Assembly: GCF_003966975.1 (NCBI RefSeq)
Contig: NZ_AP018437.1
Coordinates: forward strand, 806,001 to 870,000
Length of the DNA stretch: 64,000 nucleotides
Reading direction: 5' to 3'
From: Pelolinea submarina
GTDB lineage: Bacteria > Chloroflexota > Anaerolineae > Anaerolineales > Anaerolineaceae
Shown here one piece after another: positions 377 through 26,935 of the stretch (positions within the stretch are counted from its first letter, which is position 1; each line of letters begins with the position of its first letter). The position numbers and the translations under genes are program-made. The notes below the pieces were generated by a model. That model saw only the letters and a list, made by a program, of their open reading frames with translations, made no database searches and was not told where the DNA came from.

Positions 377-401
377 GTTTACAACTGAATATTTTCAAAT
401 G

Positions 402-520
402 AAAGCGATGAAACTGTGCACATAAATGGTCGCTGAAATGGGGTAAGCCGCCTAACCCATGGAGTGCGCAGTGGAGCGAGTAGCGAAACCGGTCATGTAC
501 GAAAATGGCCGGTAATTTGT
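402..520 (+). promoter_or_regulatory. Structured leader RNA, copy 1 (candidate riboswitch or attenuator)
   Basis: First of three related leaders (others at 3240-3362 and 4723-4832). Shared pieces in order: AGCGA (404-408), TCGCT (430-434), a variable stem region, AGCGA (482-486), then a hairpin ACCGGTCAT/ATGGCCGGT (488-496 with 505-513). TCGCT can pair with either the upstream or the downstream AGCGA, so two exclusive folds exist. Here the terminal hairpin is followed only by a weak T-rich stretch. It lies about 40 bases before the surface-protein start. The motif does not match the c-di-GMP-I, c-di-GMP-II, ydaO, cobalamin or glycine consensus that I know. Confidence 0.55.
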
Positions 521-560
521 TTAATATGTCTTAAAAATATTATAAAAATTGGAGGGAAGT

Positions 561-2981
561 ATGAGAAAGTCATTAATAATATTTAAGAGGATCACTTGCG
601 CTCTCGGAATCCTATTCATCGTTTTAGGAGTTGTCCCGGTTCCGGCAGTCAGTGTGATCAGTGAGGTAGCTGCCAGCTCCATCGATCAAGCTGAAGGCGC
701 ATCGTTGGCATTGCCGCAATTCAGCAGTGTCAATGTGGTGGATGAGCTGTCAACTGCCAAGGCGGAAAGCGTCATTATGTCACTGCCGCACTTCACAACC
801 ATCAGCCTGGTGGATGCCCTTTCGCAAGAAGGCGGCGAACCACCGGCGGGCGATGGCGGCGGTGATACCGGCGGCGGGGGTGGAGATACCGGCGGCGAGG
901 GCGGAGATACCGGCGGCGAAGGTGGAGATACCGGCGGCGAAGGTGGAGACACTGGCGGCGAAGGTGGAGACACCGGCGGCGAAGGTGGAGACATCGGCGG
1001 CGAAGGTGGAGACACTGGCGGCGAAGGTGGAGACACCGGCGACGAATGTGTAGGCGAAGAATGTATTCCAGTAACAGGCGAAACTTTTGGTGGTTGTGGA
1101 TATTCTCCCTGGGGCGAATGTTCTGTGACTTGTGGAACCGGTACGCAAACCAGAACGCTTTGGTGGGGCAATCCTGGCCAATGCAAAGACCTGACTCAAA
1201 CCTGCACGATGCCTCCCTGTTGTGCTGCTCGTGTAGAATGCTCAACAGCATGCGGACAAGCTGCGCAGGACCTACCGGATGGTTTATGTGGAACGCACCA
1301 TTGCGATGCTACCGCTGCTTGCTGTGTACCAGAAAATGGCCATTGTGATGCCAACGAAGAATGCTGTGGCGGCCTGACCTGCACCGGCAACAAATGCAAA
1401 GTGCCGGCGCCTGCCTGTAAGACCGAAGGCATGCCTTGCGGCGGCAGCAACACCTGCTGCGGCGATTTGGAATGCTACCAGAAACCCGGCCAGGAAAATG
1501 AAAAATGCTGGCCTCCCATGACCCCGGTGGACTGCCAATACCATTATGGAGATTGCACATGCGGAGCTTGGGGCTGCTGGCGGTACCTTGTAGTTGATCA
1601 GTATCCGCAAAATGGCGGGGCTGCCTGCCCAACGGCATGGTTTATCCCTTGCGGTGACCCGGTGGATTGCGAAGGGTCATGGAGTGAATGCTCCGGCCCG
1701 TGCGGCACGACTGGCACGATAACTTACACGATAACTACTCCGGCCGAAAATGGCGGCGCAGCCTGTGCTTACCCGGATGGGGCAACCCAATCCTGCCAGA
1801 ACGACGCCTGCGCACCTGAAGAAGAGTGCCCGACTTATTGTGATTATCCCGGCGGAACAGTACCGGACGGTCAGGGCGGACAAAAGACCTGCGCAGCTAC
1901 AGCGGCTTGCCCGGTGGACTGCGTGTTAGGCGATTTCGGTCCCTGCTCGGCCACTTGCGGCGGCGGTACTCAGACCCAGATTATTGAGGTACCCGCTCAG
2001 AACGGCGGTTCCTGCAACCCGATTACACAAGCTTGCAACACTGATCCCTGTCCGATTGATTGCGAAGGCGATTGGGGCGAATGTGAAGGCGAATGCGGTA
2101 CAACCGGCACGCAGACCTTCCATGTGACCCAAGCGGCCATGTACGGCGGCGCGGAATGTGGTTATGAAGACGGCGCAACACAAACCTGCGACACGGATCC
2201 CTGCCCTGAGGACTGCTACGGCGAATGGGGTGACTGTGTAGGCGAATGCGGCACGACCGGTGAAATGACCTTCACCGTTCTGCAAGTTGCCACCAATGGC
2301 GGCGAGGAATGCGAATATGAAGACGGCGCAACCCAAACCTGCGAAATGGATCCCTGCCCGATCGACTGCGAATGGAGCGAATGGAGCGAATGCTCGTCCG
2401 ACTGCGGCCCCGGCACGCAGACGCGCGAGATCCTAGTGGAAGCGCAGTATGGCGGTTTGGAATGCGAAGGCCTGGCTGAACAGGAATGCGATTCCGGCGA
2501 CTGCCCGGCACAAATGGTGCTCGATCCGCATTGTGTAACCGGCCATTTGGGCAATGCACGCTTAGCCTGGTCGTTTAGCAACCCGAGCGGCATGTCCGTA
2601 CCGGTCTCCTGGAGTCTGGATGGACAAACCGGTTCGGCCACGATTGGACCACATGCTACTATTAATGTGGGTCAAACCACCGATGGACCTGCGACCCATA
2701 CCCTGACAGTCTACTGGCCTGGTGGACATGGTTCACAATCCAGCAGCTATGACTGCGACGGCGGTATCGTCACAACCACAACCGGTGGCGGTGGCGGCGG
2801 CATCATCCCGGTGACGGGTGGAGCCGGCGGGCCGACTGAAGAATTACTGATCATCCCTGTGACGGGTGTGGACCTTAGCAGCGAATTCGCTGGATTCCAG
2901 AAACTGTTCCTGTACATGGGCTTGATGATGTTCGGTGTGACCTTATTCCTTGAAGGAATGACCAAGAAATATAAATTCTAG
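561..2981 (+). CDS. Secreted Cys-rich surface protein with thrombospondin type 1-like repeats and IPVTG C-terminus
   Basis: About 806 residues from ATG 561, chosen over an upstream TTG because GGAGGG ends five to six bases before it. Residues 1-35 form a signal peptide. A GGDTGGE-type low-complexity linker follows (about residues 100-160). The rest is Cys-rich: six modules of the form W.EC...CG.GTQT (around 1104, 1669, 1924, 2059, 2215 and 2365 nt) resemble TSP1 adhesion repeats, with a CC-rich block between the first and second. The C-terminus has two IPVTG motifs, a hydrophobic segment and the tail KKYKF, the layout of a sortase substrate. It is likely a surface adhesin or matrix protein. 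Both this gene and the next share leader RNA and C-terminal design. Confidence 0.75.
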   Translation: MRKSLIIFKRITCALGILFIVLGVVPVPAVSVISEVAASSIDQAEGASLALPQFSSVNVVDELSTAKAESVIMSLPHFTTISLVDALSQEGGEPPAGDGGGDTGGGGGDTGGEGGDTGGEGGDTGGEGGDTGGEGGDTGGEGGDIGGEGGDTGGEGGDTGDECVGEECIPVTGETFGGCGYSPWGECSVTCGTGTQTRTLWWGNPGQCKDLTQTCTMPPCCAARVECSTACGQAAQDLPDGLCGTHHCDATAACCVPENGHCDANEECCGGLTCTGNKCKVPAPACKTEGMPCGGSNTCCGDLECYQKPGQENEKCWPPMTPVDCQYHYGDCTCGAWGCWRYLVVDQYPQNGGAACPTAWFIPCGDPVDCEGSWSECSGPCGTTGTITYTITTPAENGGAACAYPDGATQSCQNDACAPEEECPTYCDYPGGTVPDGQGGQKTCAATAACPVDCVLGDFGPCSATCGGGTQTQIIEVPAQNGGSCNPITQACNTDPCPIDCEGDWGECEGECGTTGTQTFHVTQAAMYGGAECGYEDGATQTCDTDPCPEDCYGEWGDCVGECGTTGEMTFTVLQVATNGGEECEYEDGATQTCEMDPCPIDCEWSEWSECSSDCGPGTQTREILVEAQYGGLECEGLAEQECDSGDCPAQMVLDPHCVTGHLGNARLAWSFSNPSGMSVPVSWSLDGQTGSATIGPHATINVGQTTDGPATHTLTVYWPGGHGSQSSSYDCDGGIVTTTTGGGGGGIIPVTGGAGGPTEELLIIPVTGVDLSSEFAGFQKLFLYMGLMMFGVTLFLEGMTKKYKF
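864..1031 (+). repeat. Tandem 21-bp repeat, eight units, coding
   Basis: Eight consecutive 21-base units, each starting GAT or GAC at 864, 885, 906 and so on to 1011, encode DTGGEGG (first unit DTGGGGG, seventh DIGGEGG); a ninth, degenerate unit begins at 1032. It forms a flexible acidic linker in the surface protein and is a likely site of length variation by slippage. Confidence 0.9.
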
Positions 2982-3002
2982 GTTCATTTGGTCGCCTCGC
3001 TT

Positions 3003-3035
3003 ATTACCAGCTCACCCGCAAGGTGAGCTGGTAAT
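3003..3035 (+). terminator. Hairpin after the first surface-protein gene
   Basis: A perfect 14-bp stem (3003-3016 with 3022-3035) around the loop CGCAA, 21 bases after the stop codon. There is no clear T-run, so it may stabilise the mRNA 3' end rather than terminate efficiently. Confidence 0.55.
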
Positions 3036-3187
3036 GTTAACCAGGTTGTTCATACCGCCTCCTACTAAAAAGTCTCGATTTCCGTATTGCTTACCGTGCA
3101 GCCTTTCCTTTTTAAAATAGCCTATTCCACCCATTTTTATTTTTTATTAGCGATCTATTAACAAGTCCAGAATAGACGAGAGATCCA

Positions 3188-3216
3188 TTGACTTTGCATA
3201 CATATAATCGGATAAT
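3188..3216 (+). promoter_or_regulatory. Promoter of the second surface-protein gene
   Basis: TTGACT (3188-3193), a 17-base spacer and GATAAT (3211-3216), directly upstream of leader copy 2, as at 346-376. Confidence 0.6.
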
Positions 3217-3239
3217 GTATATCAAAATAGTACGAATAA

Positions 3240-3362
3240 CGGCGATGAAGCGGAGCTTTCATTTGGTCGCTTAAGCTAGGGCAGAGTTCGGGAGTACTCA
3301 GCAATAGCCAAAGGATCCGCAGAGCCAATAGCGAAACCGGTTATTACAACCGGTTTTTTTTA
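3240..3362 (+). promoter_or_regulatory. Structured leader RNA, copy 2, with intrinsic terminator
   Basis: Contains GGCGA (3241-3245), TCGCT (3267-3271) and AGCGA (3330-3334), the same mutually exclusive pairing set as copy 1. It ends in an 8-bp AACCGGTT stem (3335-3342 with 3348-3355) followed by a run of T, a textbook intrinsic terminator 18 bases before the ATG. Expression of the gene must therefore depend on reading through or refolding this leader. It shares GGATCCGCAG with copy 3. Confidence 0.65.
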
Positions 3363-3379
3363 ATTAAGAAAGGTAGAAA

Positions 3380-4570
3380 ATGAAGAAAGTTAAAGTTATG
3401 CGAAAAGTTAGTATGGTTCTAGCGGTGACAACCCTTTTGTTGGGTGTTTTATCGCTGCCCGGAACAATGCAAGTCCGCAATATTTACGCTGATTCATCCA
3501 GCGAAACAACGCCGCCCGCGGATGAAGGATCCAATGAGGAAAACTCTCAGGTTTTCCCCGTTGAAGAAAATACCAGCGATGAGAATTTACAGGATCCACT
3601 GGTTGAAGAGACGCCGGTTGAGGATCCTCAACCTGAAGAAGAATTGCAGGTTACGTCCTTCAGTGTTTCATCCATGACAGTCTCCAGCCCTATCGGTGAC
3701 GATCCCAATGTCCAGAACGAACTCCCGGACTTTGGCACCAATTACAACAACGGTGATTGTGTTACCAACACAGCCTGCGAAACAGCAGAGCCGGTCACCA
3801 ATCCCAATGATTATTCCGACCAGGGTTCCTATGGTGAAAAAGATTACGACCTCCCGGAGATCAACGGAAATGAAGCCAATATTGTCGCCATTAAAGAAGG
3901 GAATAGTTGGTATTTCTTCAAGAAAGGTTCAGGAGAGACCTGTGTGTCCTCCAGTTTCTGTGTGAATTACGACGATTCCGGCCACGTCAGTGTGTATTCT
4001 TACCAGACTCAGGGTCAGGGGTACAAAGGTTATAACATGATCAATTTCTGGTACGTCTCGGATCAAGAAGAGACCGTGAGAGGCTGTACCGATGCGTCCG
4101 CTCTGAACTTTAACCCCAGCGCAAATTCTGATGATGGCAGCTGCACCTACGACGAGACTGTCTATGGCTGCACCGACCCAACCGCGCTGAACTTCAATCC
4201 GAACGCGACATCCAATGACGAGAGCTGCACCTATGACGAAACCGTCTATGGCTGCACCGATCCGACTGCCCTGAACTTCAATGCGCTGGCTACTGTGGAT
4301 GATCAATCCTGCAATTATGAGGAAGACGATCCCGGCGACGGCGGTGGCGGTGGTGGTGGTGAAACGACCACAGTAACCACAGCTCTCATCCCGGTGACTG
4401 CGCAAACCGCGGCCGGCGGACCGACAGAAGAGTTGATCCTGATCCCGGTGACGGGTGTGGATAACACATTCCCGCTGACCAACTGGCAGCGCTTGCTCTT
4501 CTCCGCCAGTGCGATGTTATTCGGCCTCAACCTGTTAATGGAAGGCGTGTCCCGCAAAATCAAACGCTAA
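3380..4570 (+). CDS. Secreted surface protein with GCTDP..LNFN repeats and IPVTG C-terminus
   Basis: The product has 396 residues from ATG 3380, preceded by an AAGG-type ribosome site. A signal peptide (residues 1-38, MKKVKVMRKV start) is followed by an acidic, Pro/Glu-rich stretch, a middle domain of about 130 residues that I do not recognise, and three repeats of the pattern GCTDPTALNFNP..., ending DxSC (residues about 233-315). Such Cys/Asn/Asp repeats occur in secreted proteins of several phyla, where they may bind calcium. The C-terminus repeats the design of the neighbouring gene: a Gly linker, IPVTA, GGPTEEL, IPVTG, a membrane segment and SRKIKR. Probably surface-anchored by a sortase-like enzyme encoded outside this window. 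Confidence 0.7.
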   Translation: MKKVKVMRKVSMVLAVTTLLLGVLSLPGTMQVRNIYADSSSETTPPADEGSNEENSQVFPVEENTSDENLQDPLVEETPVEDPQPEEELQVTSFSVSSMTVSSPIGDDPNVQNELPDFGTNYNNGDCVTNTACETAEPVTNPNDYSDQGSYGEKDYDLPEINGNEANIVAIKEGNSWYFFKKGSGETCVSSSFCVNYDDSGHVSVYSYQTQGQGYKGYNMINFWYVSDQEETVRGCTDASALNFNPSANSDDGSCTYDETVYGCTDPTALNFNPNATSNDESCTYDETVYGCTDPTALNFNALATVDDQSCNYEEDDPGDGGGGGGGETTTVTTALIPVTAQTAAGGPTEELILIPVTGVDNTFPLTNWQRLLFSASAMLFGLNLLMEGVSRKIKR

Positions 4571-4593
4571 TACAATTTGATCGCCCCGCTTAT

Positions 4594-4633
4594 AGCCGGC
4601 TTTCCAGTCTGGGAAGCCGGCTTATTATTTGTT
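4594..4633 (+). terminator. Intrinsic terminator
   Basis: 12-bp stem (4594-4605 with 4611-4622, one G.U pair) followed by TATTATTTGTTT, after the second surface-protein gene. Confidence 0.8.
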
Positions 4634-4722
4634 TGACGCTGTATATTTATCGGATTTATATAAAAATATTCTAAAACTGATTGATATGGGAAGTATTTTG
4701 ATATAATGCAAAAACACTCGAG

Positions 4723-4832
4723 AGTAACGAAGCTGGACTTTTCTGATCGCTTTGATCCTGCGTTATACAGCGTGGATCCGCAGCTCATTAGCGCTATTAG
4801 CGAAACCGGTCGTTGATTCGATCGGTTTTTTA
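4723..4832 (+). promoter_or_regulatory. Structured leader RNA, copy 3, with intrinsic terminator, ahead of the exopolysaccharide operon
   Basis: AACGA (4726-4730), TCGCT (4747-4751), a GATCC/GGATC inner stem, AGCGA (4799-4803), then a 9-bp stem with one G.U pair (4804-4812 with 4819-4827) and T6. The order and the AGCGAAACCGGT junction are the same as in copies 1 and 2. A possible -10 box TATAAT lies at 4702-4707, with a poorly placed TTGATA at 4681. The terminator lies 117 bases before the BcsB-like start, so it would gate the whole operon. Confidence 0.65.
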
Positions 4833-4948
4833 AATTAATCAAGGCATTACAAACTTGCGAAAGTCGGGGACTAATTGTATATTCAATAAACACCGAACAA
4901 CTGTTTTCCAGATAAATTGGCTAACAATATAGCACAGGCGAGGGTTCT

Positions 4949-7114
4949 ATGACCACAAAAAAACAATCATCCAAGGGGAAAATAGTACTGACAGCACTGC
5001 TCATTAGCGCTTCCTTACTAATACAGACATACGCGTTCGCGCTGGCGGCGCCAACGGTTCAGACCACCCAGCGTACATTTACGCTGGAAGACTTCGGCCT
5101 GGCCGGTGATGATACTTACCAGGGCATTCTGGTCAGCCGTGATTACGGTATCAACCTGCCGGCCGGTTGGGTGTATGGCAGCCCGGCTGTACTTACTCTG
5201 AAATTCAGCCATTCGCCTACATTAAATGAAAAATCCACCCTGGCGGTAGATTGGAACGATGTGCGTTTGGGCAGCCAGGCGCTGACGGCAGAGAATGCCT
5301 CTGACGGCTCGCTGGAATTGCAAATTCCGGCAGATTACCTGGTAGCCGGTTACAACACCCTGCATGTAGAGTTCTACATGGGTATCTCGGATGAGTTCTG
5401 CAACGATGTGGATAATCCGGCTGTTTGGGCGGTAGTGCAGCGTGCCACTTCATTGAAATTGGAACCCACCACGGCAACGCCCAAAGCGGACTTAAGTGTC
5501 TTTCCGCTGCCTTTCATCGATGCCAGCCCGGTGGTAACCAATCACGTAACCCTGCTGGTACCCGCCCAACCCGGTAGCGGCGATCTGAACGCTTTGGCGG
5601 CGGTCAGCGCCAAATTGGGTAAGTTGTCCGGCGGGTGGCGGCCTTTGGAAGTAAACACCATGACCATCGAGGCGGCCCTGAAAAGCAAACCCCAGGGCAA
5701 TCTGATTGTGATTGCCGATTATGACAGGCTGAACCAGATCCTGCCCGGCAGTACGATGCAGCCGGGAAAATCCGGAGGCGGGGTGCTGTTTGAACAGGTA
5801 TCCCCGTTTGACAGCAGCGCGCTGCTGCTGGCAGTGACCGGCATGGAGCAGGCCGATGTGGAAAAGGCCGGACAAGCCCTGACCAGCACGGCCCTGATCC
5901 CGCGCCTTTCCGGAGACACAGCGTATATCCTGGATGTGCCGGAAAGCCGGAGCGAGGCGCGGGCCAACAGTGTCTCATACTCATTGAGCGATTTGGGTTA
6001 TACCGATACGGCTGTTTACGGTTCGCGCGAACAAAAAACCAGTTTTGCCATTCCGCTCAGCGCCTTATGGCAAAACAACAGCGCTGCCGTGCTCGACTTG
6101 CATTTCATTCACTCGGCGCTGCTGCAGGGCGACCGCTTTACCCTGACGGTCACCGTCAACGGCCTGCCGGTTGGCAGCGTGGTTATCAACGGCGGCGATT
6201 CCAGCGACCGCACCGAATCATTTCAATTACCGCTGAGTTTCTTTACCACCGGGGTCAATTACCTGGCCATCCAATCTTCCATTCAGCTTTCGGATGATTT
6301 CAGCAATGACCAAAATTATTGCACACAGGATAATTACAACCGTGCCTGGTTGACGGTGGTCAGCGATACACAAATCACTTTCCCAACCGCACCCGATCAG
6401 GTGACGGCTAACATTGCCGGATTCCCTTATACCTATATGGGCGCCGGCGATCTGTCGCAGCTGGCCTTTGTCCTGCCGGATGCGCCCGGTGCGGCCGACG
6501 CGGCTGCCATGAGCGCGCTGGCCGTGCGCCTGGGTGAAGTCGCTTCGGGCGACCAACTGATGCCCACGGTATTGAGCGCGGCGCAGGCGGATCAATACAG
6601 CGACAGTCTGCCTTATCGTATCTACATCGGCCTGCCGCTGAAGAACGGCGCTATCCTGGCCGTCAATGATCAGCTGCCGCAGTCTTTTGACCCTGTCAGC
6701 GGCGAAGCGCAGGCGGTGTCCGGACTGCCCACCATCGATACCAGCAAGATCGATACCGGCATAATCGAAGCTTTTGTCAACGAAAAACATGTACCCACAT
6801 TGGTGGTAAGCGGCAACACGGAAAAGGGCATGCTTTCAGCGGCAGCTCAGTTAGCCGACGCCGGCCAGTCGGTTTTATTAGTCGGTGACCTGGCGCTGAC
6901 GACTTCAGACACACAAGCGGTCAGTATTTGGGCGCAAGACTCGGCACAGGAATCAACCCGCCTCTCGCCTGCGGCGCAGAACGAGCAATCGCTGACAGTC
7001 TGGTTCCAACCTAACGGCGTGCTTTACGCAGCCCTGGCAATTTTATTGATCACATTGGTGATCCTGGTGCTGCATGTAGCGGTCACGTTCGGAAAGAATG
7101 GCAAAGACAGGTAG
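4949..7114 (+). CDS. BcsB-like exopolysaccharide synthase subunit
   Basis: 721 residues with a signal peptide (1-33), a large extracytoplasmic part and one C-terminal transmembrane helix (about 688-712) ending in a short basic tail. It follows the BcsB plan: two similar halves, each with a carbohydrate-binding-type beta domain (about 45-150 and 345-450; both contain a conserved YxxGISD-like or IQLSDDF stretch) and a flavodoxin-like region. BcsB is the partner of the BcsA glucan synthase that guides the nascent chain across the envelope. Its place ahead of a processive GT2 gene supports that role here. The polymer need not be cellulose. Confidence 0.75.
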   Translation: MTTKKQSSKGKIVLTALLISASLLIQTYAFALAAPTVQTTQRTFTLEDFGLAGDDTYQGILVSRDYGINLPAGWVYGSPAVLTLKFSHSPTLNEKSTLAVDWNDVRLGSQALTAENASDGSLELQIPADYLVAGYNTLHVEFYMGISDEFCNDVDNPAVWAVVQRATSLKLEPTTATPKADLSVFPLPFIDASPVVTNHVTLLVPAQPGSGDLNALAAVSAKLGKLSGGWRPLEVNTMTIEAALKSKPQGNLIVIADYDRLNQILPGSTMQPGKSGGGVLFEQVSPFDSSALLLAVTGMEQADVEKAGQALTSTALIPRLSGDTAYILDVPESRSEARANSVSYSLSDLGYTDTAVYGSREQKTSFAIPLSALWQNNSAAVLDLHFIHSALLQGDRFTLTVTVNGLPVGSVVINGGDSSDRTESFQLPLSFFTTGVNYLAIQSSIQLSDDFSNDQNYCTQDNYNRAWLTVVSDTQITFPTAPDQVTANIAGFPYTYMGAGDLSQLAFVLPDAPGAADAAAMSALAVRLGEVASGDQLMPTVLSAAQADQYSDSLPYRIYIGLPLKNGAILAVNDQLPQSFDPVSGEAQAVSGLPTIDTSKIDTGIIEAFVNEKHVPTLVVSGNTEKGMLSAAAQLADAGQSVLLVGDLALTTSDTQAVSIWAQDSAQESTRLSPAAQNEQSLTVWFQPNGVLYAALAILLITLVILVLHVAVTFGKNGKDR

Positions 7115-7122
7115 AGGTTCCC

Positions 7123-8304
7123 ATGAAAAAAACATTCTTAAATCTGCAAAAGACATCCATCTATACCGCCGTTGTTTTAATTTGGTGCATTCTTTCCGCG
7201 GTTGTTTTGGTTGCCATGAATCTCCAAACTTCCCTGGCAGCTATCGCTATATTGATTTTTATCGCGGTGCTTTCCATCATCCGCCCCTTCCCGTTGGCTT
7301 CCTGGCTTTCTCTGATAATCGGCAGCCTGGTTTACGCCTTGATCAGCTACAGCCTGTTCGGATTGAGCCGCAGTATGGCGCTTACCAGCGCGCTGGCTTT
7401 CGGCGTTTTTCTGGTGACTTCGCTGCTGGGCAATATGGTGGCGAACCAGATTGGCGGCCTGCGCGACTTGTTCCGGAAAGAGCAGAACCTGCTGGACGAC
7501 CTGGTCCAATACGACCAATCCACCGGTATTCTGCGATGGAAGTATGCCCGGCAGCGCATGAAAGCCGAAGTGCTGCGCAGTGTGCGCTATAAAAAAGATT
7601 TGTCGTTGATTCTGATTCAACTGCTCTTGCCGGAACAGGCGGATATTTCCGAAACCGAACTTACGAACCTGTACGGACAGATAATCGAGGTTGTTATCAA
7701 CAGCCTGCGTAAAGACATCGATATCCCCTTCATTGGCGAAAAGATCGGTGTCGTCCTGCCGGAAACCACTGCCGAAGGCGCGCAGATCCTGGCACTGCGT
7801 CTGGTGGATCGCATCTTCCGAAAGGTACGCGCGGAAGTGGTCATTGGCATAGCCGGTGTTCCGGGTGATGCGGTGACCGAAGAGGCGCTGCTCAACCAGG
7901 CCGAACTGGCGCTGAAATTCGCGGTTAGTTCCGAACAATCGGTTGTTCCGGCCGCGCGCTTGCGCAGTGCGGTTGAGAAGCGTACACCGGAAGAAGAGGA
8001 AAGCGCCGCGCCCGAAATGGAATCCACTGAACTTGTAGAGGAGCCTTTGGGGCCGGAGGAGTGGCGTGTGGAAGTGGGCGGTTTTACCAGCATGGATGAC
8101 CTGCCGAGCGTTGAAAAGTCATTCACCGAAAGCGGTGCGGCTGCCGATTTTCACCTGGTCCGGCTGGACGGCAATACTTTGGTCGCGCGTGTTACACCCG
8201 CCGGGGCCGACTTGCCGGGAACGCTGCGCACGCTGCCGCAATTTATACTAAAGAATGTCGATGAATCCAAGCGCAGTATGCAGATCGAGATTAAATTGGA
8301 TTGA
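7123..8304 (+). CDS. Membrane protein with degenerate GGDEF domain (exopolysaccharide operon)
   Basis: 393 residues. Residues 1-110 hold about four hydrophobic segments. A short coiled linker leads to a domain (about 125-285) with the GGDEF fold pattern: YDQSTGILRW at the start and LPETTAEGA after the active-site position. In place of GG[DE]EF the protein reads FIGEKIGVVLPET, so the catalytic signature is missing and diguanylate cyclase activity is unlikely; it may bind c-di-GMP or act as a scaffold. A C-terminal part (about 315-393) is unrecognised. It starts 8 bases after the BcsB-like stop. The domain recurs, about 70% identical, at the C-terminus of the STAND protein at 38335-41292. Confidence 0.75.
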   Translation: MKKTFLNLQKTSIYTAVVLIWCILSAVVLVAMNLQTSLAAIAILIFIAVLSIIRPFPLASWLSLIIGSLVYALISYSLFGLSRSMALTSALAFGVFLVTSLLGNMVANQIGGLRDLFRKEQNLLDDLVQYDQSTGILRWKYARQRMKAEVLRSVRYKKDLSLILIQLLLPEQADISETELTNLYGQIIEVVINSLRKDIDIPFIGEKIGVVLPETTAEGAQILALRLVDRIFRKVRAEVVIGIAGVPGDAVTEEALLNQAELALKFAVSSEQSVVPAARLRSAVEKRTPEEEESAAPEMESTELVEEPLGPEEWRVEVGGFTSMDDLPSVEKSFTESGAAADFHLVRLDGNTLVARVTPAGADLPGTLRTLPQFILKNVDESKRSMQIEIKLD

Positions 8305-8634: not shown

Positions 8635-11600
8635 ATGACTGCTCAATCAACCCATCCGAATTACCAGATCAATGGTGCAGCAACGGGGGCTTACGTATCG
8701 CGCCTGGTTCCGCTTAAAATCGCCCGGGATTTTGAGCTAGTCCCATTGACCCTGTACGATAACCGCCTGCAGGCAGCTTGCGCATATCCGCTCACGCGCG
8801 CCGGTATTGCGGCATTGCAGCGAACACTGCGCTATCCCCTGGATATGGTGCAGGCTTCGCTGCCGGATGTGCGCACCGCACGCTGTTACCTCTATGAAGA
8901 AGCGGACGAATCTCCCAAAGCGTTCTCCATGCAGACAGCGCTGCGCTTGCTGGGGCTGCTGCGCGAAGACCAAATCCATGAGGCTGAAAAACAGCCAACT
9001 GGGAAGGCCGATTTAGGGCAGGTCGCGCTGGAAAAACGCTGGATCAATGCCGAACAATATGCCGAAACGCTGGGATTCTTTGTGAATCTGCCGCATTTGC
9101 GCACCAGCAGCGCCAGCCCGCTGGAAGGCATGAATTTATTCATGCCCTTTGAGCAGGCCGAAGCGCTGGGCGTCCTGCCGCTATGGTGGGTGGGCAGTAC
9201 ACTCTATCTGGCAGTCGATCCCGAAAGGGCCTTGAAGATTGACGCCGGACTGCGGGACCTGGACTTCAACTATCGTCTGGTGACCTGCGACCCGGCCACG
9301 TATGCGCAGCTGCGCAAGCAGATCTACCGGCCGCGTCCAATTGAATTTGAACCGCTCAACGAGTGCCGTACGGCGAACTGGCTGGTGACGGAAAAATTCC
9401 TGCGATCCGATGAGCTAGCTCTGGCGCAGGAGCTTCATGCGCGCAGCGGTATTTCCCTGGCGGTTATTTTACGAGAACAGTTTGATGTAAAAGCAGAGGA
9501 TTGGCTGGATGCGGCCGCCGAAGTCAGCGGGGTCATCCCGGTACACGCGCGCGATCTGCCGGCGGATATTGAAACACGCGTGAGCGCGCTGTGGAATGTA
9601 CTGCCGGAAAACTTGCTGCTGCAATTCGAGTTGCTGCCCTTGAACCGGGAAGACGGCACATTGGTATTGGGCATGGCGGCTGTCAATGAAGAAGCGCTGG
9701 CGATGGCACGCGCTTTCAGCGGCGGGCGGGTGGATGCGCGTCTGATGGAAGCGGGTTTAATCCGGCGTCTGCAGAAGTCCGCGCAGCAGGCCTTACGCAC
9801 CCGCGCAGGGCTTGGCGGACCGCAAATCAATACCGTAACTTTTGGTGAATTTTTGCTTAACACAGGATTGCTCCAGCGCGAACAGTTGGACGAACAGTAC
9901 GAAAAAGGCATCTCCGATCAGGACTTGCCAGCCGCGCTGCTGGAAGCAAATTTACTGAACGAGCTTGATCTGGCTGAAATCTACAGCCTGATCAGCGGCA
10001 TTCCCTTTATCTCCCTGGAATATTTCCAATTCGATGAGCGCCTGATGAAGCTGCTGCCTTCCGAACTGGCCCTGGAGCGAAAACTACTGCCGCTGTTTGA
10101 GAATCAGGGCGATCTTTGGGTGGCTGTGAGCGATTTGCGCAGCTGCGAAGCGCTGGGAGAAGCTGCCGAACGCAGCGGCAAGCGTATTTGGCCGCTGCTG
10201 GTACCGGAGACGGCCCTGCTTGCGGCTCTGAACCGTTTTTACCGTTTCAGCCGCAGCACGCCCCAGGCCGGAATTATCTTCAAATATACCGATGCATTGG
10301 TAAGCGCGGGCTTGCTCTCGCAATCCGACGCCCTGCAGGCGGCCGCGGCCGTGAGCGAACAGGGTAAGGCGCTCGACGAAACTCTGTTGGAGTTGAATAT
10401 CCCGGCTGACGCGCTCTATCCCATCCTGGCGTCTGTGCGGGGTGTTGAATTGGTGGACTTAGGCCTGACCGAAACGCTCGAAGAGAGCTACGACGCGCTG
10501 GGCCAGCTGCGAACTACACGGCGCTGGCAGGAAAAGCTGGACGCGGATGCCGCGCGCTTGCTGGATTTAAACACCGCCCGGCGCCTGACGGCCATCCCCA
10601 TCGCGCAGGCAGCCGACGGCCTTAAGGTGGCTTTCGCCAACCCGTTGTTTGAAGATACGCAGCAGGAATTGACTTTCCTGCTGGGACAGAATATCATCCC
10701 CTGCCTGGCTTCGCGCGCGGAAATCGAAGATGCCATCCAGCGCCTGCTGGGCCAGATGAACCTGGGCACTTCCCTGCTGCTGGCCGGGCGCATCACACTC
10801 AGCCAATTGAATAACGCGCTGGCGCTGGCACGCAGCAGCAATATCCGTTTGGGACGCGCGCTGGTGCACCGCGGTTATATCAGTGAAGCGGAATTGTACG
10901 CGTTCCTGGCGCATCAGGCGCACCTGCCGCTGTTCGACCTTTCCAGCGCAGCGCTGAGCGAAGAAGCCGCGCGCTTGTTGGACCCGGAGGAGGAACGCCG
11001 CGAGGGCCTGCTGCCGTTGGCTGTCAGCGATGATCAGGTCTACCTGGCCATGGTGGATCCGCTCAACGAATCCGGCAAGGGCAGCGTGGAACGGGCGCTG
11101 GGAAAAAAGGTCACGCCTATTCTGGTCAGCGAGAATGATTTCGATTTGGCCATGGAACGCCTTTACCAGGATGAATACCTGGACAAAAGCACGTCCGAAT
11201 TGCTCAAGCGCTCTCCCGAGGATTCGGCTTTCCGCGTTTTCAGCAGCGGGCAATTGATTGTTTTCTTCACTTTCCTGGCCATATCCATTATCTGGCTGGC
11301 GTGGGATTACGTCAGCTACCTGGTGATAACCAACTCGCTGATCAGCATCATCTACCTGCTGTTCTCGGGTTACAAGGCGATCATGATCACCAACGCCATC
11401 AGTAGCGATTTGGAAGTGGATGTGACCGATGAAGATGTGGCCGCGCTCAAAGACCGCGACCTGCCTATTTACACCATCCTGGTGCCGGTATATAAGGAAG
11501 CCCAGGTGCTGCCCAAGCTGCTTAAACGCCTGGGTGAACTGGATTACCCGACTGCTAAATTGGATATCAAGATCCTGATGGAAGCCGGGGATCAGGAAAC

Positions 11601-12597
11601 CATCGACGCGTATTATCTTTCCGAACCGCCGGATTTTATCCATGCGGTGGTGGTGCCGGACGCGCAGCCCAAGACCAAGCCCAAGGCGTGCAATTACGGA
11701 TTGATCCACGCGCGCGGCGAATACCTGGTGATCTACGATGCCGAGGACCTGCCTGAGCTCGATCAGCTCAAACGCGTGGTGGTGGCTTTTCGCAAGGTGC
11801 CGGCGGACGTGGTTTGCATCCAGGCCAAGTTGAACTATTACAACCGCTCTCAAAATGTGCTTACCCAGTGGTTTACCTCCGAGTATTCTATGTGGTTTGA
11901 CCTGCTGCTGCCGGGGTTGGATGACGCGCACGCGCCCATCCCGCTGGGCGGTACCTCCAACCATTTCAAGACCTTTTCGCTGATTGAAGTGGGCGCCTGG
12001 GATCCGTATAACGTAACCGAGGACGCCGACCTGGGCATCCGCTTGTACAAACGCGGCTACCGCACCCGCATTGTGGACAGCACCACCTACGAAGAAGCCA
12101 ACAGCCGCGTGGGCAACTGGATCCGCCAGCGTTCGCGCTGGATCAAGGGGTATATCCAGACCTGGCTGGTGCACATGCGTCACCCGTTCAGGTTACTGCG
12201 CGACATCGGTCCGCGGGCTTTCTTCAGCTTCCAGCTATTGATCGGCGGCACCTTTTTCTCGCTGCTGGTCAACCCGATCTACTGGCTGATGACCTCGGCC
12301 TGGTATTTCTTCCACTGGGACCTGATCCAGCTGCTCTTTCCCGGAGTGATCTTCTTTATCGGCGCCATCTGCTTGTATATCGGCAATTTCGTGTTCACCT
12401 ACGTCAATATTGCCGGCGCCATGCGGCGCAAGTACTATGACATGGTGCGTGTCACACTCTTCAGTCCGGCTTATTGGGCTCTGATGAGCGTTGGCGCCTG
12501 GAAGGGTTTTATCCAATTGCTGACCAAGCCGCATTTCTGGGAAAAAACCATTCACGGACTCAACGTTGAAGAGAATAAGGAGCAGAGCGAATCATGA
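8635..12597 (+). CDS. Giant MshEN-GT2 fusion: c-di-GMP-responsive processive glycosyltransferase
   Basis: 1320 residues. The first ~860 contain five or six successive modules of about 140 residues resembling MshEN/GspE N-terminal domains (for example the LG..L...G.I....L..AL pattern near 715-760). MshEN domains are known c-di-GMP receptors. Two transmembrane helices (about 877-925) lead to a family 2 glycosyltransferase (about 945-1190) with VPVYKE, DAED, TEDADLG and QRSRW, the D,D,TED,QxxRW set of BcsA-like synthases, followed by four membrane segments. It probably polymerises and exports a polysaccharide with the BcsB-like partner. A PilZ domain, usual in BcsA, is not visible; the MshEN array may replace it, as in NfrB. 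Confidence 0.8.
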   Translation: MTAQSTHPNYQINGAATGAYVSRLVPLKIARDFELVPLTLYDNRLQAACAYPLTRAGIAALQRTLRYPLDMVQASLPDVRTARCYLYEEADESPKAFSMQTALRLLGLLREDQIHEAEKQPTGKADLGQVALEKRWINAEQYAETLGFFVNLPHLRTSSASPLEGMNLFMPFEQAEALGVLPLWWVGSTLYLAVDPERALKIDAGLRDLDFNYRLVTCDPATYAQLRKQIYRPRPIEFEPLNECRTANWLVTEKFLRSDELALAQELHARSGISLAVILREQFDVKAEDWLDAAAEVSGVIPVHARDLPADIETRVSALWNVLPENLLLQFELLPLNREDGTLVLGMAAVNEEALAMARAFSGGRVDARLMEAGLIRRLQKSAQQALRTRAGLGGPQINTVTFGEFLLNTGLLQREQLDEQYEKGISDQDLPAALLEANLLNELDLAEIYSLISGIPFISLEYFQFDERLMKLLPSELALERKLLPLFENQGDLWVAVSDLRSCEALGEAAERSGKRIWPLLVPETALLAALNRFYRFSRSTPQAGIIFKYTDALVSAGLLSQSDALQAAAAVSEQGKALDETLLELNIPADALYPILASVRGVELVDLGLTETLEESYDALGQLRTTRRWQEKLDADAARLLDLNTARRLTAIPIAQAADGLKVAFANPLFEDTQQELTFLLGQNIIPCLASRAEIEDAIQRLLGQMNLGTSLLLAGRITLSQLNNALALARSSNIRLGRALVHRGYISEAELYAFLAHQAHLPLFDLSSAALSEEAARLLDPEEERREGLLPLAVSDDQVYLAMVDPLNESGKGSVERALGKKVTPILVSENDFDLAMERLYQDEYLDKSTSELLKRSPEDSAFRVFSSGQLIVFFTFLAISIIWLAWDYVSYLVITNSLISIIYLLFSGYKAIMITNAISSDLEVDVTDEDVAALKDRDLPIYTILVPVYKEAQVLPKLLKRLGELDYPTAKLDIKILMEAGDQETIDAYYLSEPPDFIHAVVVPDAQPKTKPKACNYGLIHARGEYLVIYDAEDLPELDQLKRVVVAFRKVPADVVCIQAKLNYYNRSQNVLTQWFTSEYSMWFDLLLPGLDDAHAPIPLGGTSNHFKTFSLIEVGAWDPYNVTEDADLGIRLYKRGYRTRIVDSTTYEEANSRVGNWIRQRSRWIKGYIQTWLVHMRHPFRLLRDIGPRAFFSFQLLIGGTFFSLLVNPIYWLMTSAWYFFHWDLIQLLFPGVIFFIGAICLYIGNFVFTYVNIAGAMRRKYYDMVRVTLFSPAYWALMSVGAWKGFIQLLTKPHFWEKTIHGLNVEENKEQSES

Positions 12598-25148: not shown

Positions 25149-26801
25149 TCACTTTTTGGTTTGCGGATAAGTGCTGCTTTGTTTTGATAACCACTTTAAG
25201 ATCGTTTTAAAGTCAAGCGGCTTGGAAATGTAATACCCTTGCAGGCAGTCCACACCCAACTCCAGAAGTTTCTCTTTTTCCAGTTTCTTTTCGATGCCTT
25301 CGGCTATTACGGCGATATGTGAGGATTTGGCGATAGCAATGATGCCTTCGATAATGGTTTGGTTGTTTTTATTGATATGAATATCGTCCACAAAGGATTT
25401 ATCGATTTTGATTGCACTGATATCCTTGTTTTGGAAGTTACTGATACTGGTGAAACCAACGCCAAAATCGTCAATCGAAATCTTAACCCCTTCACGTATT
25501 AAGGTTTGCAGGTTTTTTATGCACTGAAGATCATTTGCCAGAAATCCTCTTTCTGTAATTTCAAGTTCCAAATGATGGGCAGGAAAATGATGTTTGTGGA
25601 TCAAATCGATTACACGGTCGGCAAAATCCACCTGGAATAGATTGGTGATGGAAATATTTATGGCAATGTCTAAATTGAATCCTGTTCGATAGATTTTTTC
25701 CATACGCCCGATGTTAGTTTCAAGCGAATAATATGTCAGGATATTGGCAATGCGCGTGAATTCAAGATCGGTGATGAAGTGATCGGGTGGAATCAGCCCT
25801 TTCACAGGGTGATTCCAGCGCACCAAGGCCTCCAGCGAACATACCTCACCATTCGCATGAACGATTGGCTGGTAATGAAAATCGACTTCGTTGTTACGGA
25901 TAGCATTCTGGAATTGCCCCAGCAATACCGGGATTTCAGCATTTGAAAGCCCGGAGTGGTATTGCTGGTAAGGTTTTTGGTGTTTCTTGGCTTCATTCAG
26001 TGCCAGAAAGCCGTTTTTTAGTATTTCTTCGGTTGACTGGCCCCCTTCGGGATAGGAAGCTTCTCCCATAGAGATTTCACAATAAAGAGGGATGCCATTG
26101 ATAATAATAGGTTCTTCAAGGAGAGTAGATAACTTTTTGATATCCTGGCGGATTTCGAATAAAACCAGCCCGAAGGTGTTTAAACGGATTTGCAATAATT
26201 GATAATTCTTGAAGTTGCGGCGAACAGTCAGGATGATTTCATCATTCAATTTTTTGATACTGTCCATACCAAAAGATGCCAGCAAGTCATTTTGATTGCT
26301 AACTTCAATCAGGATAAACCGAAATTTCATAATCTGGTTGGAGTTCAGGTCATTCATCACCTGTTCACAAAAATCTTCCCAGGAAGAGAGTGAATAATTT
26401 TTGGAAATAGGTGTGGATTCGGCTTCGTGGTTGGTTTTTGGGGCAATAATGTTTTTTAATAAACCAATAACCAACCCCGCGCTGCTGAAGTAGATTGCGC
26501 GTAAAAGGCTGGCCTGAATTTGATGTGTCTCTGTCAACCCAAAGGGGGAGGGGTTGAACACATCGATGAGGAGTTCCGCAATAATTCCGCTTAAAATACC
26601 AATACGGTAATCAAAAACGAGAGCCGCCGTGAATATTGGCAAGTACATAAAATGGGTTAATACATTATCTGGAATATTTAATTTTGAAATTATGAAGGCA
26701 AAAATAACTTGTGCGCATAATGTACCAACTAGAACACTGATGGGTTTTTCTCTACTGAATCTCTGATTGAAATTCTCTGCCTTCAATTTCCACTCCACCA
26801 T
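25149..26801 (-). CDS. Membrane-bound c-di-GMP phosphodiesterase (degenerate GGDEF + EAL)
   Basis: Up to 550 residues. N-terminal hydrophobic helices (about 20-115) form a membrane sensor. The GGDEF domain (about 140-275) has lost its signature (RLNTFGLVLFEI). The EAL domain (about 290-540) keeps EALVRW, ELEITE, IDDFGVG, KIDKSF and AEGIE, the metal and catalytic residues, so it should hydrolyse c-di-GMP to pGpG. The start is uncertain: ATG 26801 directly abuts a terminator T-run, whereas TTG 26786 has GGTGGAG six bases upstream. Preceded by a c-di-GMP-I riboswitch, so its own substrate controls its expression. Confidence 0.88.
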   Translation of the reverse strand: MVEWKLKAENFNQRFSREKPISVLVGTLCAQVIFAFIISKLNIPDNVLTHFMYLPIFTAALVFDYRIGILSGIIAELLIDVFNPSPFGLTETHQIQASLLRAIYFSSAGLVIGLLKNIIAPKTNHEAESTPISKNYSLSSWEDFCEQVMNDLNSNQIMKFRFILIEVSNQNDLLASFGMDSIKKLNDEIILTVRRNFKNYQLLQIRLNTFGLVLFEIRQDIKKLSTLLEEPIIINGIPLYCEISMGEASYPEGGQSTEEILKNGFLALNEAKKHQKPYQQYHSGLSNAEIPVLLGQFQNAIRNNEVDFHYQPIVHANGEVCSLEALVRWNHPVKGLIPPDHFITDLEFTRIANILTYYSLETNIGRMEKIYRTGFNLDIAINISITNLFQVDFADRVIDLIHKHHFPAHHLELEITERGFLANDLQCIKNLQTLIREGVKISIDDFGVGFTSISNFQNKDISAIKIDKSFVDDIHINKNNQTIIEGIIAIAKSSHIAVIAEGIEKKLEKEKLLELGVDCLQGYYISKPLDFKTILKWLSKQSSTYPQTKK

Positions 26802-26837: not shown

Positions 26838-26935
26838 GATGCCGGCAGCTTGGCGGCCCTGTCTAATAATTGAATAGATTTAGGTCCATTGCTTTGCGTC
26901 CCCGCTTTTCAACGAGTTTGCCTTTTACAACATTT
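26838..26935 (-). promoter_or_regulatory. Cyclic di-GMP-I (GEMM) riboswitch
   Basis: Minus-strand sequence holds the conserved GEMM elements in order: AAAGGCAAAC (GGCAAAC at 26922-26916), a hairpin with GAAAA loop, GGGACGCAAAGC (26902-26891), GGACCTAAAT, and the closing GCCGCCAAGCTGCCGGC (26857-26841). These match the c-di-GMP-I aptamer core (GGCAAACC, GGACGCAAAGCC, CCTAA, GCCGGGTTGCC-like 3' arm). It regulates the EAL phosphodiesterase through the adjacent terminator. Confidence 0.9.

Follow-up and report, generated by a model that had tools for sequence, protein, structure and literature searches.

Class II c-di-GMP riboswitches (c-di-GMP-II) are represented in Rfam by RF01786 and RF03169 (c-di-GMP-II-GAG), both of which belong to clan CL00127. 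GAG and GCG variants of c-di-GMP-II have reportedly been described in one study. In the structure 3Q3Z, the contacts to c-di-GMP include C68, A69, A70, C71, C72, and G73 (PMC7288161). In C. difficile, the class II riboswitches all act as ON switches, and their targets are sortase-dependent surface proteins and type IV pili (PMC6200980, PMC6366702).

The window analyzed here, a stretch of 64,000 nucleotides from Pelolinea submarina, carries three related leader RNAs (Table 1). As judged by sequence comparison, copies 1 and 2 look intact and are with high confidence c-di-GMP-II riboswitches of a form common in Anaerolineae, which would act as ON switches; copy 3 is probably impaired in sensing but keeps its terminator.

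Table 1. Features of the locus and of a second c-di-GMP-related gene in the window
Feature	Position	Strand	Basis
Copy 1 aptamer, c-di-GMP-II type (P1, P2, kink-turn, P3, pseudoknot P4)	392..503	+	RF03169, RF01786, R1
Copy 1 terminator-like hairpin, 5′ arm ACCGG (3′ part of the aptamer core), weak U-tract	~488-513	+	-14.9 kcal/mol
Gene 1, secreted, thrombospondin type 1 repeats, C-terminal IPVTG, membrane helix, and basic tail	561..2981	+	Pfam TSP_1/TSP1_spondin
Copy 2 aptamer, c-di-GMP-II type, long extra hairpin arm	3229..3351	+	RF01786, R1
Copy 2 terminator hairpin GAAACCGGTT...AACCGGTTTT and T-run, 5′ arm within the aptamer core	~3333-3357	+	-12.1 kcal/mol
Gene 2, secreted, C-terminal TEELILIPVTG, membrane helix, and basic tail as in gene 1	3380..4570	+	C-terminus comparison
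Copy 3, related to copies 1 and 2 but divergent	4711..4820	+	R1, column comparison
Copy 3 terminator hairpin AAACCGGTCG...CGATCGGTTT and T-run, intact	~4802-4826	+	-15.0 kcal/mol
Promoter-like TTGCGA-17-TATATT, 3′ of the copy 3 terminator	4855..4883	+	consensus match only
Gene 3, BcsB-like exopolysaccharide subunit	4949..7114	+	Pfam BcsB, E 5.9e-76
Membrane protein, weak degenerate GGDEF-like domain	7123..8304	+	Pfam GGDEF, 15.4 bits, below cut-off
Family 2 glycosyltransferase, five MshEN domains (c-di-GMP-binding type)	8635..12597	+	Pfam MshEN x5, E 3e-61; Glyco_trans_2_3
GGDEF-EAL gene	25149-26801	-	EAL domain, E 6.5e-63
c-di-GMP-I riboswitch upstream of the GGDEF-EAL gene	26841..26932	-	RF01051, 72.1 bits

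Class assignment and structure of the leaders

Copy 1 scores 44.0 bits against RF03169 (cmscan), over the gathering score of 40, and at relaxed thresholds 46.4 bits against RF01786 (E 4e-8 for 4.7 kb; cut-off 53.5). For copy 2, relaxed thresholds give a match to RF01786 with 42.8 bits (E 4.3e-7 for 4.7 kb), under the gathering score of 53.5. For copy 3, Rfam yields nothing at E ≤ 10, and its link to the class is only through R1, a covariance model trained on 61 aptamers from other genera, with the own genome and the own genus left out. In a search of the window, R1 finds copy 1 with 70.1 bits (E 3.3e-18), copy 2 with 68.5 bits (E 1e-17), and copy 3 with 27.9 bits (E 7.8e-6); in the 3.5 Mb genome, copy 3 has E 4.3e-4. 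Searches of the whole genome, among them the one with R1, gave no convincing fourth class II copy.

The initial annotation had regarded the leaders as unclassified, matching no riboswitch class it knew, and had named a match to an Rfam family as a finding that would refute this; copy 1 has such a match. Because of the Rfam matches of copies 1 and 2, the leaders are assigned to a known class. An unclassified riboswitch or attenuator is hardly tenable: the lack of any Rfam match for copy 3, and of one above the gathering score for copy 2, would fit it, but copy 1 exceeds the RF03169 cut-off, RF01786 finds copy 2 at E 4e-7, and the structure, the kink-turn, the pseudoknot, and the core are all those of c-di-GMP-II. 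For the leaders, we infer c-di-GMP as the ligand.

All three leaders carry the shared elements in the order first described, except that the 5′ element of copy 3 reads AACGA instead of being GCGA-like. The original start positions of the leaders lie too late and exclude the 5′ strand of P1. The reading of three copies holds in that all are homologous. Copy 3 as an equal third copy was rejected—its score is about 40 bits lower, an invariant base is gone, and it is probably impaired.

All helices covary among the 61 relatives: 26 of 31 pairs are changed on both sides, and the helix covariation score is 0.482, while shuffles give 0.191 and slid partners no more than 0.158. Within Anaerolineae, the pseudoknot P4 (UCGCU with AGCGA) hardly varies, and phylum-wide aptamers were therefore added to its test. 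Across Chloroflexota, P4 occurs as UCGC/GCGA, UCAC/GUGA, ACGC/GCGU, GCAC/GUGC, and others; 98.2% of the cells are paired, four of five pairs covary, and the score is 0.467 versus 0.207 for shuffles. Of the two pairings first proposed for TCGCT, the one with the 3′ AGCGA is thereby supported, whereas the one with the 5′ GCGA was rejected because its covariation stays at shuffle level (0.127 versus 0.120). The 5′ GCGA is a piece of the P2 strand and the kink-turn bulge and is variable in relatives. The G.A/A.G pairs of the kink-turn (GA/GA) are kept in the relatives and in copies 1 and 2.

Single-sequence folds of the leaders are mildly stable, with z-scores of -1.3 to -2.1, as would be expected if the similarity were due to chance and the hairpins were plain terminators. 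The probability of this reading is negligible, since it is already refuted by the E-values of an independent model (down to 3e-18) and by the strong covariation.

Ligand pocket and terminator overlap

The numbering of 3Q3Z was transferred via the conserved GUGCAACCG, a mapping of our own. All 61 relatives have A69, C71, C72, and G73, and 59 of 61 have A70; the three window copies keep all five. Position 68, a C in 3Q3Z, is an A in 61 of 61 aligned relatives and in the three window copies, and is paired with U rather than G. The ligand-adjacent pair 32-68 is U-A in most Anaerolineae aptamers, compared with G-C in the Rfam class II consensus. Within Chloroflexota this pair is U-A, A-U, or G-C, and the U-A and A-U forms occur even in one genome. 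Because all three forms occur while A69 and C71-G73 stay fixed in the aligned relatives, the change is read as neutral, and it looks like a pair exchange rather than a new specificity. In a few aptamers (L028, L070, L252, and L254), the sequence is GCGAACCCG or GCGCACCCG and C takes the place of the ligand-contacting A70; these are possibly non-functional or altered variants.

An A at position 68, paired with U, in place of the ligand-contacting C could alter affinity or specificity. It is very improbable that the exchange from G-C to U-A makes the Anaerolineae form, or copy 3 alone, sense another cyclic dinucleotide such as 3′,3′-cGAMP or c-di-AMP. In class I riboswitches, few substitutions can change ligand specificity, which speaks for such a change. 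The class I mutant G20A/C92U binds c-di-AMP (PMC7288161), and position 68 touches the ligand in 3Q3Z (PMC7288161), yet is A throughout the aligned relatives. Against it stand the variation of the pair even within one genome, the fixed A69, C71, C72, and G73, and a genome rich in GGDEF domains and c-di-GMP-I riboswitches. Likewise improbable is a broader version, in which the U-A form, or copy 3, whose kink-turn region is rebuilt, would be changed in ligand or affinity, so that one locus would hold related aptamers tuned to different signals. A pair exchange with c-di-GMP as the ligand is the preferred reading.

A riboswitch or attenuator whose last conserved element abuts the terminator had been proposed at the outset; this is borne out, and the two even overlap. 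The 5′ arm of a terminator-like hairpin starts inside GCGAAACCGG in each of the three window copies and in 77 of the 91 relatives. In these 77 aptamers, the arm reuses the ligand-binding GAAACCGG, as opposed to about three (1-8 per shuffle) with shuffled downstream sequence. The terminators of copies 2 and 3, which have T-runs, had been described at the outset as strong; the U-tract of copy 1 is weak, as also first noted. Since aptamer and terminator compete for the same bases, ligand binding is expected to allow read-through and should turn the downstream genes ON. At low c-di-GMP, the 3′ core GAAACCGG would pair with downstream bases and form the terminator, and transcription would stop. With c-di-GMP bound, the kink-turn, P1, and P4 would keep GAAACCGG inside the aptamer; the terminator would be blocked and the surface-protein genes transcribed. 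This polarity agrees with that of the C. difficile class II switches (PMC6200980, PMC6366702).

Downstream genes and the divergent copy 3

The initial assignment of the downstream genes to surface and exopolysaccharide functions is in line with the secreted genes 1 and 2, the BcsB-like gene 3, and the MshEN glycosyltransferase, which also matches the NCBIfam models c-di-GMP_motif and NfrB. Gene 1 starts with the ATG at 561, preceded by GGAGG, and contains a tandem glycine-rich repeat of the GGDTGGEG type (window 830-1060). No Pfam domain was found in gene 2. The tail of IPVTG, membrane helix, and basic residues occurs in genes 1 and 2 and also in relatives, where at least eight complete proteins under class II control carry it; it has no NCBIfam match and looks like a putative sorting signal. 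In the form IPVTG[G/A/V]D, with membrane helix and basic tail, it recurs across several genera behind these riboswitches (window ~2840-2981 and ~4420-4570). Class II riboswitches would place c-di-GMP over a surface-protein and exopolysaccharide locus of Anaerolineae, probably together with a c-di-GMP-binding synthase at the protein level.

The genome as a whole has about 20 GGDEF domains and 10 c-di-GMP-I riboswitches, one of which is that at 26841-26932 of the window. At the GGDEF-EAL gene of the window (Table 1), c-di-GMP may control its own turnover. At G000:C1:2141988-2143000 (minus strand; L261/L262), a tandem c-di-GMP-I pair lies about 66 bases before a gene for a putative sortase, which scores 248 bits with NCBIfam sortase_YLP. 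The IPVTG-tailed surface proteins, for their part, stand under c-di-GMP-II leaders.

In the kink-turn of copy 3, column comparison shows a C where all 61 relatives have A, and the G.A/A.G pairs are not kept. In addition, its P1 is weak, with about three good pairs, and the loop carries G41→A—a change that alone is not telling because a few relatives in the phylum share it. Beside the core lies a short repeat, ATTAGCG...ATTAGCG. Copy 3 retains P4, A69-G73, and a strong terminator. Given P4 and A69-G73, it may still bind some ligand. It is probably an impaired riboswitch of the same RNA ancestry that lost sensing and kept the terminator.

In the sister genome G003 of the same genus, copies 1 and 2 are found at syntenic places before orthologous genes, and no copy 3-like leader precedes the BcsB orthologue (63% identical). 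Where copy 3 stands here, between gene 2 and the BcsB gene, G003 has an arsenic methyltransferase-like gene (L041, G003:C17), next to which lies what appears to be a reading frame of ArsR type.

Alternatively, copy 3 could be an undamaged, functional attenuator rearranged into a new fold, as its intact terminator, P4, and A69-G73 and its own upstream promoter-like region, kept as judged by eye, would allow. This is possible but unlikely: the A→C exchange hits a kink-turn base invariant in 61 relatives, P1 has few good pairs, the sister species has no counterpart, and the folding energy is not unusual (z -1.29). For an impaired copy 3, the BcsB and glycosyltransferase genes may be transcribed from the promoter-like site behind it and thereby bypass the leader; such sites number ten in the region, with 4.6 expected. 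Their control by c-di-GMP would then act mainly via the MshEN domains of the enzyme. Since the operon behind copy 3 encodes BcsB and this glycosyltransferase, putative c-di-GMP control at the protein level may render the RNA sensor dispensable. Copy 3 would be a natural case of a riboswitch that is seemingly losing its sensor and not its terminator.

Distribution and comparison with known systems

Class II matches occur in 32 of 61 genomes (the own genome and 60 relatives); a single genome has as many as ten, and some are in tandem. Two or three aptamers in succession, each with its own core, stand before one gene in L062 (601-931), L053 (4001-5815), and L074 (601-823). The 61 genomes contain about 94 c-di-GMP-II type aptamers, only about 41 of which reach any Rfam gathering score; the threshold of RF03169 is passed by about 41 matches and that of RF01786 by 3. 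Copy 2 and about half of the Anaerolineae relatives lie under the gathering scores. Those that pass are mostly labelled GAG though their sequence is GAA, and the remainder would be picked up by a model made for the lineage, such as R1—an annotation gap. Among named species genomes, the strict UCGC/GCGAAACCG pattern is almost confined to Chloroflexota; the few other matches are near chance expectation by a rough estimate. A plasmid search found nothing, and within the paper library searched, none of the papers that mention both Anaerolineae and riboswitches appeared to deal with the subject. In a crude sorting by hydropathy and motif, 58 of the 85 distinct target genes of the relatives code for a hydrophobic segment at the N-terminus, 20 are of response-regulator type, and 7 are others; most targets thus appear to be secreted proteins, surface proteins, or response regulators.

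With the c-di-GMP-I riboswitch RF01051, the leaders share the presumed ligand, but its structure is unrelated and it gives no match to any of the three. The C. difficile riboswitches Cdi-2-1 and Cdi-2-3 (CD630_32460, CD630_28310) are alike in being class II riboswitches before surface adhesin genes. They belong to another phylum and their proteins use sortase anchoring, whereas the proteins here have IPVTG tails and thrombospondin repeats, and their anchoring is putative.

RF01786 (structure 3Q3Z) features the same order of P1, P2, kink-turn, and P3, the pseudoknot P4, and the GGAGC and ACCGG core; the overlap with the terminator, the ON architecture, and the surface-protein targets are alike as well. 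Its consensus P4 is GCAC/GUGC, compared with UCGCU/AGCGA and a U-A ligand-adjacent pair here. Moreover, the P3 loop here contains an additional hairpin, and the scores lie mostly under the gathering threshold of this family.

RF03169 shares the UCGC/GCGA pseudoknot, and its threshold is exceeded by copy 1 and by about 40 relatives. However, its consensus is GCGAGACCG, with G at position 69, compared with GCGAAACCG and A at 69 in these RNAs. Under a GAG criterion at positions 67-69, derived from the name and consensus of RF03169, neither the three copies nor any of the 61 aligned relatives pass the subtype test, as all of them read GAA; a true GAG example from the phylum (L255) scores 73.5 bits. 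By these letters, the leaders are best described as intermediates of GAA type, for which the RF03169 label is the nearest model rather than an exact fit. The class is a known one, and its unusual traits here are the U-A ligand-adjacent pair, the position of about half of the aptamers under the Rfam cut-offs, and a copy 3 that lacks the kink-turn A yet keeps its terminator.
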